Shown here one piece after another: positions 6,211 to 10,522 of a DNA stretch of 64,000 bases (its first letter is position 1; the number at the start of each line of letters is the position of its first letter). Source of the stretch: Candidatus Gastranaerophilales bacterium (GTDB taxonomy: Bacteria > Cyanobacteriota > Vampirovibrionia > Gastranaerophilales > Gastranaerophilaceae); contig CANQJT010000004.1 of assembly GCA_947624325.1 (NCBI GenBank), forward strand, positions 1-64,000, given 5' to 3'. The notes beneath the pieces are model-generated. The model made no database searches. It saw nothing but the letters and a program-made list of their open reading frames with translations, and was not told the origin of the DNA. A program made the position numbers and the translations under genes.

Positions 6211-6948
6211 ATGATTGTAAACGCATTAATGAATGCTAATTTCTACCAAGAATATGAAATGGGTAATAAAATTAACGAGTCCCAAAATACTGATAATTCT
6301 ACATCTATATATGATACAGCGGTATCAGATGAAACTAATACAGCTGAAAAAAATCAAATACTTGATAATTATAAAAACATAATTGACAAAGCTATTGAAA
6401 CAGAACTGTTTTTGTCAGAATGTAAACCTTCATCGGATTCTATTTTAATATGGGATAGAACCTATAAGAAAGATGATTATATATGTACTGAACATAAAGG
6501 CTGGGGCAATAAAAAAACCGTTATAAAAGTTAAAGATGACAGTTTATTTGAGCTGGCAGGAGATGTTTTATTTGGACTCCAACCTGAAAAGATTATAGAA
6601 GAATATGATAAAAACAATAAATTATGTAAAACAACACAATTTGATAAAGAAGGAAACTGTATTGTAACTGTTTTTAATTCTGACGGTTCAAAGAAAGAAG
6701 TAGTAGAAATAAAAAATAAAGAAAAAAATACCTCAGAATATAAAACAGAACTAAAACATACATATTATAACGAGTCCGGTACCTGTGTAATGACAACCGA
6801 TTTTGAGATTAATAAATTTTCAGGGGATGAAAATCCGAAAAAAACAACAACTGCCGAATATTTCAAGCCGGATGGAAGACCGGATTATATGTCTGAATTT
6901 GTATATAACCTTATTTTTAATACAAATAACGGTGAAAATAACAGTTAA
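6211..6948 (+). CDS. Hypothetical protein with short YD-like repeats
   Basis: The 245-residue soluble protein has no signal peptide. Its middle contains EYDKNNKLCKTTQFDKEGNCIVTV and TVFNSDGSKK, resembling the short strand repeats of YD/MORN-like proteins. The N-terminus is Asn/Thr-rich. ATG 6211 follows ACGGGGA. The region just upstream (6041-6097) has an inverted repeat, TTTAACAG/CTGTTAAA. Family not recognised; probably lineage-specific. Confidence 0.55.
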   Translation: MIVNALMNANFYQEYEMGNKINESQNTDNSTSIYDTAVSDETNTAEKNQILDNYKNIIDKAIETELFLSECKPSSDSILIWDRTYKKDDYICTEHKGWGNKKTVIKVKDDSLFELAGDVLFGLQPEKIIEEYDKNNKLCKTTQFDKEGNCIVTVFNSDGSKKEVVEIKNKEKNTSEYKTELKHTYYNESGTCVMTTDFEINKFSGDENPKKTTTAEYFKPDGRPDYMSEFVYNLIFNTNNGENNS

Positions 6949-6978
6949 ATAAACCTTTAAAATAGTTTTAGATTACTT

Positions 6979-8247
6979 TTATTTATCCTTATTATTTACT
7001 AATCCCGGTTCATATTTATTTTTTGTAATAAGATTTCTTAAGAAAAACTGTACTTTTGGCAGACAAAAAGCTAATAAGAAAGAACTTATAACAACATTTA
7101 AGAGTATATTAACACATTTAGCCGTTTTTGCTTTTTTGGCAAATTCTTCTATGTTACCGTAATTGATTGCATTTTGACTGAAATTTTTAATATTATTTAT
7201 AAATTTATTCATTTCCTCTATATTAATATAAGCTCCGGGGTCTCTTGTATAATCATCTGTCATTTTTATAAGATTTACTTTTTTTGCTAATTTGGTAATA
7301 ATTTCTTTCGGATTAGTGTCTAAAAATTCAAGTATATCCTTTGCACTGTTTGATTTAGGGAATTTTAATGCATTTTCTTTTATTTTAGATATAAATTCTT
7401 TATCTGCAATAATAATAGGATCTAAATCAGAATTAATTTTAAATAATTTTTTAGTTAAAAAATCCAAGCCCTTTGCGATTTGTTTAGGGGCAATATAGTT
7501 TAAATACATCATTCCCGTCATTTTGATACCGTTATCTAATGCTTCATTTTTATTTCTTGCTGTTGTAACTCTGCCTATACTAAGTCCGCCGTCTGTTATT
7601 GCCATTTTTTGAACTGTTGTTAATTTATTCATTGCAATTAATAAGTTTGATTTGAAAGATGGTTTGTTTTTTTCCTTTTGTTTATCGGTAATTCTTTTTT
7701 CAAAGTCGTTAATATCAATGAAGCAGTAAGTTTTAGGGGATTTATTATAAGGAATTTTCATTACTTTTTTTGTTAATCCAAAATTAAGTTTTGGCAGAAT
7801 AAACCCCATAATTAAAGTCGGTATCAAAACAGAAGCCAATAATTTAATTCCGAGTAATTTTTGGTATTGAGGAAGGTTATCTTTAACTTTAATTAAATCT
7901 TTAACCGCATCAGGTGCTTTATCCTTAAATAATTCAATATTTAAATCAAGATTTTGAAAATTATCACCTTTTAATAAATCAGTGCTGATATTGGGATTAA
8001 ATCCTTTTTTGTTAATTATTTTATCGCAAATTTTACCGACAAGAGGAATACCGCCAAGCCAGACTGCTGAAGTGGCATACTCATCTATTATTCTTTCTCT
8101 TACTGCATTTTTAGCGATATATTTATCAGATTTATTCTGATTATAAGTCATAATAACTTTTGTAGGATTTTCAATACCGCAATCTCTAATAAATAAGGGA
8201 TAAATACTATTATTATTTCCGATAGCCGAAATGATTGATGTTAACAT
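6979..8247 (-). CDS. Lineage-specific membrane protein behind an attenuator
   Basis: This 422-residue protein has a hydrophobic segment near residues 150-170 (LLASVLIPTLIMGFILP) and another near the C-terminus (VNILLNVVISSFLLAFCLP), with Lys-rich soluble parts between. No known family was recognised. ATG 8247 is preferred over the upstream in-frame TTG because GGAG lies 9 bases before it. The gene is preceded by a leader peptide and a terminator/antiterminator pair (8280-8404), so its transcription is probably controlled by translation of that leader. Confidence 0.65.
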   Translation of the reverse strand: MLTSIISAIGNNNSIYPLFIRDCGIENPTKVIMTYNQNKSDKYIAKNAVRERIIDEYATSAVWLGGIPLVGKICDKIINKKGFNPNISTDLLKGDNFQNLDLNIELFKDKAPDAVKDLIKVKDNLPQYQKLLGIKLLASVLIPTLIMGFILPKLNFGLTKKVMKIPYNKSPKTYCFIDINDFEKRITDKQKEKNKPSFKSNLLIAMNKLTTVQKMAITDGGLSIGRVTTARNKNEALDNGIKMTGMMYLNYIAPKQIAKGLDFLTKKLFKINSDLDPIIIADKEFISKIKENALKFPKSNSAKDILEFLDTNPKEIITKLAKKVNLIKMTDDYTRDPGAYINIEEMNKFINNIKNFSQNAINYGNIEEFAKKAKTAKCVNILLNVVISSFLLAFCLPKVQFFLRNLITKNKYEPGLVNNKDK

Positions 8248-8279
8248 TTTTATTTTCTCCAATTTTTACACTAAACAAA

Positions 8280-8311
8280 AAAGCGGTCTTTTTACCTGAA
8301 AAGACCGCTTT
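8280..8311 (-). terminator. Attenuator terminator in the leader of the 422-residue membrane protein
   Basis: On the minus strand a 13-bp perfect stem (8299-8311 with 8280-8292, core AAAGCGGTCTTTT) is followed by TTTTTTGTTT, a classic intrinsic terminator placed before the gene's ribosome binding site. Loop plus 5' arm (8295-8305) are exactly complementary to 8353-8363, so an 11-bp antiterminator can form instead. On the plus strand no T run follows, so it acts in the minus direction. Confidence 0.75.
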
Positions 8312-8338
8312 GTATAAAAATCGGATATTAAAACCGCA

Positions 8339-8404
8339 TCACAGATTTAACAGTCTTTTCAGGCTGATATGGCAATGATGAAGTTTTAAATAATCGTTAA
8401 ACAT
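8339..8404 (-). CDS. Putative attenuator leader peptide, 21 residues
   Basis: ATG at 8402-8404 follows AAGGGA at good spacing and encodes MFNDYLKLHHCHISLKRLLN plus a final Leu, then TGA. Codons 9-12 are His-His-Cys-His. Codons 14-18 contain the strand CCTGAAAAGAC, which pairs with the downstream terminator arm. A ribosome stalled at the His/Cys codons would leave that strand free and allow readthrough; one that reaches the stop codon would cover it and let the terminator form. The arrangement is seen in the sequence; the regulation is inferred. Confidence 0.6.
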   Translation of the reverse strand: MFNDYLKLHHCHISLKRLLNL

Positions 8405-8620
8405 TTATTTCCCTTTTTATATTGTAAGTTTAACACTAATTATCAGGATTTACAAGTGTCACTCAGATTATATAACGTTCAGAAAATAATTTTTTGATAT
8501 GTTTTATAAGAATTTTATGATTAACAAAATTTAATATTTTAAAAAAAATTCTAAAGTTTTTTATATTTGTGCCGATAAGCGAATTTGTGTAGTAAAAATT
8601 TAATATATGGGGTAAAGATT
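8405..8620. other. Divergent intergenic region
   Basis: This very AT-rich spacer lies between the leader peptide and the EF-hand gene and must hold promoters for both directions. A TATAAT on the minus strand (8468-8473) is a possible -10 for the leader, but no convincing -35 was found. No gene or repeat was recognised. Confidence 0.4.
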
Positions 8621-10522
8621 ATGTCAAATTATTTTAGCGATTTTAAAGACTATTTGCAAAAACATGTCCAAGAAAATGGAGGATATAATAAAAATATAGA
8701 TAATGCCGCAGGTAAAGATATAGAAGATTTTCAGTTATTTGAACTGGTCGACGGTAAATATGTAGAAACCGCCGAATATAAAGAAATGTTAGAAAACGGC
8801 AACGGTTCTATTACAAAAGATGATTTTACCAGCATTTTTGAGGAAAGCGGTGTTTCAAAAGAAGAAGCTGAAGCTATATATGATTTTATCGCAGGGCAAG
8901 ATGGCGATGATGTAATGTCAAAAGAAGAATTTGAAACTTTGGCAAGTTTAGGAAGCCACTTAGTATCTGATGGTGAATATGTTGATAAAGACAGAAACGG
9001 AGTTACTTTTAACGAACACGATATTACAACTTTATATGCAATGTTAAAGAAAGCAGAAAATGGAGAAGAAACTACAGGGAATTATACTACGAAGAAAAAA
9101 GATGACGAAGTAGAACTTGAATTAGATTATGATGATGCTTTTGCAATTAACACTGCAGGAATGAAAAAAGGTGATAAATCTAAAGAAATAAAAGATTTAA
9201 CATTATTTGAACTGCAAGAAGACGGTTCATATGAATTATCTGAAGAACTTCAAGACATGCTTGATAAAGATGGCAATATAGATAGAGATAAATTTATTGA
9301 ATACTTACATCTTGAAAATAGAGATGACGCATTAACCGAAGAACAAATAGGACAAATTTATGATGCCGTAGCAGGTAAAGACGGTGTAATGTCTTTAGAC
9401 GAACTTGAAGCACTTGCTAAATTGGGTGAAAAAATGTACCCGACAAAGGATAAAGATGATAAAGGTGTCAAGCTTGATGAATATGACTTGCTTGCATTAT
9501 ATAAAATGATAGATGATGCAAGACCTGCTCAACCTCAAGGTCCTATAGTTCCTCCGGCAGGAGATTCTGAAGGGGATGAAGCACCAACTATTCCTCCTGT
9601 GGATATAGGCGGCGAAGATGAAGGTGAAAAAGAAATGTATGCACCACCTCCTCCTGAAATATCAGATGAGCCTGAGCCGACAACAGTTCATCCGGATTAT
9701 CCGGATATCCCAGATCTTCCTATGTATGCACCTCCACCTCCCGGAATATCAGAGGAGCCTGAGACATCAGATGAACCCGGAATTACTGATGACCCTGAAA
9801 TATCGGAAGACCCTGAGACATCAGATGACCCGAGTGTTACAAGTGATCCTGAAACATCAGATGACCCCGGTGTTACAAGTGACCCTGAGACATCAGATGA
9901 CCCGAGTGTTACAAGTGACCCTGAGACATCAGATGACCCGAGTGTTACAAGTGATCCTGAAACATCAGATGACCCGAGTGTTACAAGTGACCCTGAAACA
10001 TCAGATGACCCCGGTGTTACAAGTGACCCTGAGACATCAGATGACCCGGGTGTTACAAGTGATCCTGAAACATCAGATGACCCCGGTGTTACAAGCGATC
10101 CTGAAACATCAGATGACCCCGGTGTTACAAGTGACCCTGAAACATCAGATGACCCCGGTGTTACAAGCGACCCTGAGACATCAGATGACCCCGGTGTTAC
10201 AAGTGACCCTGAAACATCAACAGACCCGGGCGACGACCCAATACCGTCCTACGATAATCCCGGCGGTGAAGATATACCTCCTGCACCACCCGGTGGTGGT
10301 GATGAACCGGGTCCGAACATATCAGACGACAGCGGTGCCGATGACTCAGATGTATCCGGCGGTGATGATAGCGGTGGTTCCGGCATACCCGGTGACAGCG
10401 GTGCAGATGAACCCGGTGTATCAGGTGATAATGAACCTGACACGGATGTATCAAGCGGCGACCAACAATGCCCTGACCCAACAACAGAACCAACTCACCC
10501 TGAAGATGAACCGGATTTATAA
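8621..10522 (+). CDS. EF-hand-like protein with a long Pro/Asp/Ser repeat tail
   Basis: The 633-residue protein has no clear signal peptide. The first 310 residues hold two similar halves, each with EF-hand-like loops (DKDRNGVTFNEHD, DKDGNIDRDKF, GKDGVMSLDELE, DKDDKGVKLDEYD), suggesting calcium binding. The rest is low complexity: PPPPEISDEPEP segments, then about eleven 12-residue units of SDPETSDDPGVT type, then Gly/Asp-rich sequence. ATG 8621 follows GGGG and is preferred over the in-frame TTG at 8585. An intrinsic terminator follows. It may be a structural or surface protein; location uncertain. Confidence 0.65.
   Translation: MSNYFSDFKDYLQKHVQENGGYNKNIDNAAGKDIEDFQLFELVDGKYVETAEYKEMLENGNGSITKDDFTSIFEESGVSKEEAEAIYDFIAGQDGDDVMSKEEFETLASLGSHLVSDGEYVDKDRNGVTFNEHDITTLYAMLKKAENGEETTGNYTTKKKDDEVELELDYDDAFAINTAGMKKGDKSKEIKDLTLFELQEDGSYELSEELQDMLDKDGNIDRDKFIEYLHLENRDDALTEEQIGQIYDAVAGKDGVMSLDELEALAKLGEKMYPTKDKDDKGVKLDEYDLLALYKMIDDARPAQPQGPIVPPAGDSEGDEAPTIPPVDIGGEDEGEKEMYAPPPPEISDEPEPTTVHPDYPDIPDLPMYAPPPPGISEEPETSDEPGITDDPEISEDPETSDDPSVTSDPETSDDPGVTSDPETSDDPSVTSDPETSDDPSVTSDPETSDDPSVTSDPETSDDPGVTSDPETSDDPGVTSDPETSDDPGVTSDPETSDDPGVTSDPETSDDPGVTSDPETSDDPGVTSDPETSTDPGDDPIPSYDNPGGEDIPPAPPGGGDEPGPNISDDSGADDSDVSGGDDSGGSGIPGDSGADEPGVSGDNEPDTDVSSGDQQCPDPTTEPTHPEDEPDL
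9806..10201 (+). repeat. 36-bp minisatellite inside the EF-hand gene
   Basis: About eleven tandem 36-bp units encode DPETSDDP(G/S)VTS. Units differ mainly by Ser versus Gly codons and silent changes (gat/gac, gag/gaa), so the copies have homogenised recently. The unit length is a multiple of three, so copy-number change would lengthen or shorten the tail without breaking the frame. Confidence 0.9.

Follow-up and report, generated by a model that had tools for sequence, protein, structure and literature searches.

Organization of the locus

The window, that is, the whole stretch of 64,000 nucleotides analysed here, comes from a Candidatus Gastranaerophilales genome (G000) of 1.98 Mb that is 98.9% complete. 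On its minus strand, the segment from 8404 to 8248 holds a leader open reading frame (ORF), an intrinsic terminator and an antiterminator, and it lies upstream of the gene of a 422-residue helical membrane protein (6979-8247), which starts with an ATG at 8247 behind GGAG. The leader ORF (8339-8404, including the stop codon), recognized by reading its frame and by comparison with relatives, encodes the 21-residue peptide MFNDYLKLHHCHISLKRLLNL, with histidine at codons 9, 10 and 12 and cysteine at codon 11. It is preceded by the Shine-Dalgarno sequence GGGAAA and by a putative promoter, TTGTAA-17-TAAACT, assigned by eye (both within 8405-8450, minus strand).

Several pairings can be drawn on the RNA of this segment, all on the minus strand. 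The 1:2 hairpin (8328-8389), seen in the ViennaRNA fold of the window transcript and in the pairing of each locus, joins the His codons and AAAAC to a stretch past the leader stop. The 5' strand of the antiterminator (8349-8364) coincides with leader codons 14-19 and belongs to a covarying helix of 14 pairs, the 3' strand of which (8294-8309), likewise placed by covariation, overlaps the 5' arm and the loop of the terminator. The terminator itself (8280-8311), located by a terminator scan and by covariation, consists of 13 pairs followed by a T-run; it is the sole terminator-like site in 6500-10000, and shuffles of that range give 1.5. Moreover, per-locus pairing delineated an anti-Shine-Dalgarno strand (8312-8325; RNA UCCGAUUUUUAUAC), which could cover a stretch holding part of the Shine-Dalgarno sequence of the gene (8258-8271).

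A preliminary description of this DNA had reported a 21-residue leader that has a good ribosome binding site and contains His-His-Cys-His at codons 9-12, the segment CCTGAAAAGAC in codons 14-18 as the exact complement of RNA positions 8295-8305, and a 13-pair terminator with a gene of 422 residues downstream; all of these are present, on the minus strand, the ribosome binding site being GGGAAA and the terminator lying at 8311-8280. It had overlooked the third pairing, which is able to cover the Shine-Dalgarno sequence of the gene, and the 1:2 hairpin, through which an untranslated leader still permits terminator formation.

The divergent neighbour at 8621-10522 codes for an EF-hand-like protein (Pfam EF-hand_7, E 1e-5, under the curated cut-off) that carries a long tandem array of DDPxVTSDPETS-type repeats.

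Conservation of the histidine-rich leader peptide

From 98 related genomes a scan retrieved a first set of orthologs, the lowest identity being 46%, and a His-rich short ORF lies upstream in all 16 that were inspected, the window's own counted. The main set, several contigs of which are shared with the first, comprises the window and the best 80 of 210 relatives (81 loci); here the leader was picked as a His-rich ORF located 110-250 nt before the gene. Such a leader is found in 81 of 81 loci, with 3 to 7 histidines (median 4); dinucleotide shuffling of these upstream regions gave one in 54 of 4050 cases. Histidine is enriched 10.6-fold over the shuffles, followed by leucine at 2.3-fold, and none of the twenty residues otherwise stands out in the 81 loci. 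The histidine codons are overwhelmingly CAT (337, against 15 CAC), and the peptides vary from 16 to 37 residues in length and in their non-His residues.

The start signals are conserved to different degrees. An SD-like 4-mer precedes the leader in 58 of 81 loci, compared to 11.8% of shuffles, and a promoter score of at least 10 is reached in 14 of 81 loci, compared to 3.2% of shuffles. The promoter of the window matches weakly, the scan giving it only 8 of 12, and at another place; the one assigned by eye is in register with TTGAAA-17-TAAAAT of locus L033.

The preliminary description had the leader sense histidine and cysteine together, and the window and several relatives indeed have a Cys inside the His run. 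However, cysteine occurs in only 21 of the 81 leaders (17 of 77 distinct peptides) and is enriched merely 1.2-fold, compared to the 10.6-fold of histidine. The histidine half of the proposal therefore stands, its codon being the sole conserved one, whereas cysteine, which is not conserved, was dropped as a co-effector, and we consider a joint sensor of the two amino acids highly improbable. Overall, the codon content points to histidine as the effector and to cysteine as incidental.

Covariation of the antiterminator and the terminator

In each locus the end of the leader can pair with a downstream stretch, and both strands change together, as in CCTGAAAAGGCTGT with ACGGTCTTTTCAGG, CCTTGGAAGGCTAT with ATAGTCTTTCAAGG, CCTGAAGAGGTTGT with ACAACTTCTTCAGG and TCCCGATAAGGCTAT with ATAGCCTTTTCGGGA. 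The loci comprise a main class of 62 and an NPKG class of 19, the leaders of which read ...NPKGLG... or similar. For the covariation analysis 48 of the 62 main-class leaders were aligned, most of them chosen from loci in which the antiterminator is clear; the 14 outside the alignment are L036, L092 and L098, in which the helix is present, and 11 with a weaker or displaced helix. For this alignment RNAalifold predicted, unprompted, exactly the antiterminator helix and no other.

The antiterminator pairs in 96.4% of the alignment cells, with compensatory changes at 9 of its 14 pairs, and continues as GAAUUG with CAAUUC, paired in 93.0% of the cells; as the aligned leaders are mostly those with a clear antiterminator, these pair counts lean towards that helix. 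The 5' arm of the terminator is the 3' strand of the antiterminator, the two structures sharing this downstream strand, and the terminator also covaries, with 86.2% of the cells paired and compensatory changes at 10 of 12 pairs. Sliding the partner strand by one to three columns lowered the paired cells to 34-57% for the antiterminator and to 42-62% for the terminator. Locus by locus, the leader-to-downstream helix beats all 25 of its own shuffles in 68 of the 81; under a stricter control with partners taken from other sequences, it beats all 25 outright in 17 of 81 and reaches the 95th percentile in 49, a weaker result explained by the helix sequence being common to many lineages. The terminator is found in 45 of the 62 main-class loci and in none of the 19 NPKG-class loci. 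The anti-Shine-Dalgarno pairing (8312-8325 with 8258-8271 in the window) beats its own shuffles in 30 of 81 loci and is thus weaker than the antiterminator.

A single leader element upstream of a single gene

R1, a covariance model of the leader RNA, was run on 288 genomes of the family and matched 149 of them, once in each. Of these 149, 148 also belong to the 167 gene-bearing genomes; the sole exception, G256, has the leader, with its gene cut by the contig end. In all 132 cases that could be placed, the match sits directly upstream of the gene on the same strand, within 80 nt in 131 cases and at 94 nt in one. Nineteen gene-bearing genomes were missed by R1, 17 of which were read: each has an ORF with at least three His, the pick in G226 being doubtful. 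As for the other two, G049 had been covered in the earlier upstream inspection and G215 is outside the count.

These matches bear on a rival reading of the window, in which the hairpin at 8311-8280 is a mere terminator, such as the end of a small transcript, its complementarity to the leader is fortuitous and translation regulates nothing. The weak promoter of the window would fit this reading, as would a second start, which could lie between 8280 and 8247. Against it, the leader frame, the His codons, the antiterminator and the terminator are all conserved with covariation family-wide, and the element occurs as one copy per matched genome, always before the gene where it could be placed. We give this explanation practically no credence.

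Folding states and proposed mechanism

Folding of the window transcript with ViennaRNA revealed three states. The naked transcript forms the 1:2 hairpin and the terminator; a ribosome whose A site holds the first His codon allows a 16-pair antiterminator to fold, and a ribosome at the leader stop allows the terminator to fold. Among the 38 loci having both an antiterminator and a terminator, the expected state was obtained in 32 for the naked transcript (terminator), in 31 for the stalled ribosome (antiterminator) and in 36 for the ribosome at the stop (terminator). The complete three-state switch folds in 25 of the 38 loci, the window among them; of the 13 others, seven form the terminator even when stalled and six the antiterminator even when naked. 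In addition, the distance from the first His codon to the start of the antiterminator is 12 nt or longer in 64 of 67 loci, and a ribosome at the stop would cover at least 4 nt of the antiterminator strand in 48 of 67.

The preliminary description had proposed attenuation by a leader peptide, with a terminator and an antiterminator that cannot form together, and had called for a comparison with relatives. That comparison found the leader frame and the His codons conserved and both stems conserved and covarying, which, in addition to the folding in relatives, gives the proposal strong support. In our reading, the region is very probably a ribosome-mediated, histidine-responsive attenuator. From the leader, the helices, their covariation and their folding, all of them read from the sequence, we infer the stalling, the termination and the response to histidine that make up the following scheme.

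We propose that the leader is translated while it is being transcribed. With ample charged His-tRNA, the ribosome would get to the leader stop and cover most of codons 14-19, upon which the terminator at 8311-8280 would form and the gene would be off. With scarce charged His-tRNA, the ribosome would wait at His codons 9-10 and leave codons 14-19 free; these would pair with 8294-8309, no terminator would form and the polymerase would read into the membrane protein gene. Should the leader remain untranslated, the 1:2 hairpin would take up codons 14-19 and the terminator would form. The stretch in front of the terminator might also cover the Shine-Dalgarno sequence of the gene. The lineages lacking a terminator (17 of 62 main-class and 19 of 19 NPKG-class loci) probably regulate translation; passages of PMC9413887 describe this variant for attenuators at large.

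Distribution of the gene and of histidine biosynthesis

The preliminary description had seen no known link between the gene and amino acid supply. This view has to be given up, as the gene is almost confined to genomes without histidine biosynthesis; the source genome of the window itself lacks hisD and hisG. Of 288 family genomes, 167 have the gene, 79 have hisG, 47 have neither and only 5 have both, compared to 45.8 expected (raw counts, with kinship ignored). Eighteen genera have the gene only and twelve hisG only. The two exclude each other also within three mixed genera, with counts for gene only, hisG only and both of 2, 16 and 0 in g1, of 8, 10 and 0 in g51, and of 10, 7 and 3 in g6; the remaining two genomes with both belong to g13 and g68, one to each.

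The specificity control trpA proved likewise inverse to the gene (both in 1 of 38), because genomes with trpA mostly have hisG, and the counts were therefore stratified. Among the 250 trpA-less genomes, the gene and hisG occur together in 5, compared to 29.9 expected, and among the 209 hisG-less genomes, the gene and trpA occur together in 1, compared to 3.1 expected (p 0.036), kinship being ignored in both strata.

This distribution also weighs on the idea that the leader is a metal- or compound-sensing arrest peptide, comparable to ermC- or SecM-like systems, in which a His-rich nascent chain would bind a metal in the exit path and stall the ribosome. The His runs with an occasional Cys do resemble metal ligands, and such a device would act at translation in the lineages without a terminator. 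But the leaders have merely 3 to 7 His in 16 to 37 residues with the rest variable, the His codons are placed as a classical attenuator requires, and the gene tracks the loss of hisG, which a metal sensor does not predict. We rate an arrest peptide as a very remote prospect, and hold to an attenuator that senses histidine through its codons.

As the gene appears to be under histidine control and is found almost exclusively where histidine synthesis is missing, the simplest reading is that the membrane protein is a candidate for histidine acquisition, a prediction that we consider well founded.

Sequence and predicted structure of the membrane protein

The window protein matches no Pfam family and has no match of weight in NCBIfam. 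When 45 orthologs were searched against Pfam, four different families matched one member each, none of them a permease, and a profile search of the protein family against the PDB gave no relative. An AlphaFold2 model built from 45 sequences (pLDDT 83.1, pTM 0.74) is nearly all helical, with four long helices. Structural similarity search with this model revealed nothing above background, with a best Foldseek E of 0.42, and VIA-align gave a Z of at most 7.0 and an RMSD of 10.0 over 184 residues. A Kyte-Doolittle scan of the window protein showed two clearly hydrophobic peaks; with these and four long helices in the model, the term "transporter" is not supported by shape. The halves of the protein, residues 1-200 and 201-422, can be aligned over their full length (hhalign E about 3e-4, with a probability of only 15-19%), and each has a hydrophobic helix followed by LPK..F, which hints at a possible internal repeat.

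The gene neighbourhood of the best 80 of 210 relatives revealed no conserved partner beyond 24 of 80 ortholog loci. The gene upstream of the histidine-controlled gene in these 24 loci (e.g. L077:3-1952) is divergent, and we take it to be RelA/SpoT-like.

An alternative keeps the attenuator as described and assigns the protein a role other than histidine uptake, either in a general starvation response or in peptide salvage, with the link to hisG a by-product of lineages having lost many pathways. It fits the missing match to any transporter family or fold, the few clearly hydrophobic helices, the inverse distribution of trpA and the neighbour presumed to be RelA/SpoT-like in 24 of 80 loci. By contrast, the exclusion of hisG persists in trpA-less genomes (5 against 29.9) and trpA adds little in hisG-less ones (1 against 3.1), and the leader is enriched in His alone. 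We regard this alternative as a serious one, though on the whole rather unlikely, and retain histidine acquisition as the predicted role.

Paralogs with other leaders

The membrane protein family has at least two further subfamilies, B and C. Subfamily B (L019-L032 and L149-L160) has two leader ORFs in tandem upstream, the distal one with Arg-Arg or Lys-Arg, a terminator being visible by eye in some loci, and the proximal one with a W-G-L end in 21 of 23 loci and Arg-Arg in 15 of 23. Of 81 genomes from the order, 2 have both B and argG (G069 and G079, the exceptions), 58 have B only, 13 argG only and 8 neither, with cut-offs for both chosen by the analyst; as much of this contrast falls between families, it is a lead rather than a proof. 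A second B type in the genus of the window (L022, L026, L027, L030 and L032) has a proximal W-G-L leader without Arg-Arg, and its distal leader is mostly absent. Subfamily C (about 500-565 residues; L147:1234-2925, L148, L153, L157 and L161) lacks a leader ORF of this kind in the few loci that were read; in some loci it adjoins a divergent gene that is presumably ribosomal protein S20-like.

These observations raise the prospect of a new Gastranaerophilales family for amino acid acquisition, in which the leader of each paralog would be rich in codons of the imported amino acid and the paralog would replace its lost biosynthesis: histidine in hisG-less genomes for subfamily A, and arginine, through tandem Arg-Arg leaders, in argG-less genomes for subfamily B. 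We put this forward tentatively, as a conjecture that falls a little short of an even chance.

Comparison with known systems and implications

The 64-kb window has no Rfam match at gathering score. The Rfam leader families (His_leader and others) and the T-box were considered as well; in a permissive scan of 8200-8520 neither a His leader nor a T-box came up, all of its matches lying below gathering.

Among the systems treated in passages of PMC9413887, the closest is the hisL attenuator of Enterobacteria and other Proteobacteria, with a short ORF in which His codons follow one another, a terminator and an antiterminator as alternative structures, and stalling logic. The present element shares the short ORF, the alternative hairpins and, as proposed, the logic of stalling. 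It differs in its target, which is a single membrane protein gene in a genome without hisG and hisD rather than the his operon, and also in the possible anti-Shine-Dalgarno pairing and the terminator-less lineages. Leader-peptide attenuators responding to histidine are described for Firmicutes too, ahead of his operons (in passages of PMC9413887) and of hisZ and hisS paralogs of bacilli (in passages of PMC2965389). Both cases are His-codon leaders outside Proteobacteria; however, the Firmicutes targets are his operons or hisS paralogs, whereas here the host is Candidatus Gastranaerophilales and the target a membrane protein without a family match. The regulatory logic further resembles that of HisXYZ and YuiF, histidine transporters that, according to the same passages of PMC9413887, are controlled by HisR or a T-box in Gram-positive bacteria auxotrophic for histidine: a histidine sensor stands ahead of an acquisition gene, here a candidate one, in auxotrophs. 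Unlike in those systems, the sensor here is a leader peptide, and the protein lies outside known transporter families.

The histidine attenuator proposed here is statistically of high quality, and in the open-access literature we found none for the Gastranaerophilales lineage. The mechanism is known and classical; what is new, as far as our searches show, is the lineage, the target and the change in mode of control. Under one type of leader, lineages seem to have shifted between control of transcription and control of translation. The hosts of the gene are gut bacteria dependent on others for histidine, and the leader codons and the gene content together give a predicted function to a widespread family without a relative in Pfam, NCBIfam or the PDB. 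The same reasoning from leader codons may apply to the paralogs; if the conjectured acquisition family is real, the leader codons would read out the substrate of each paralog.
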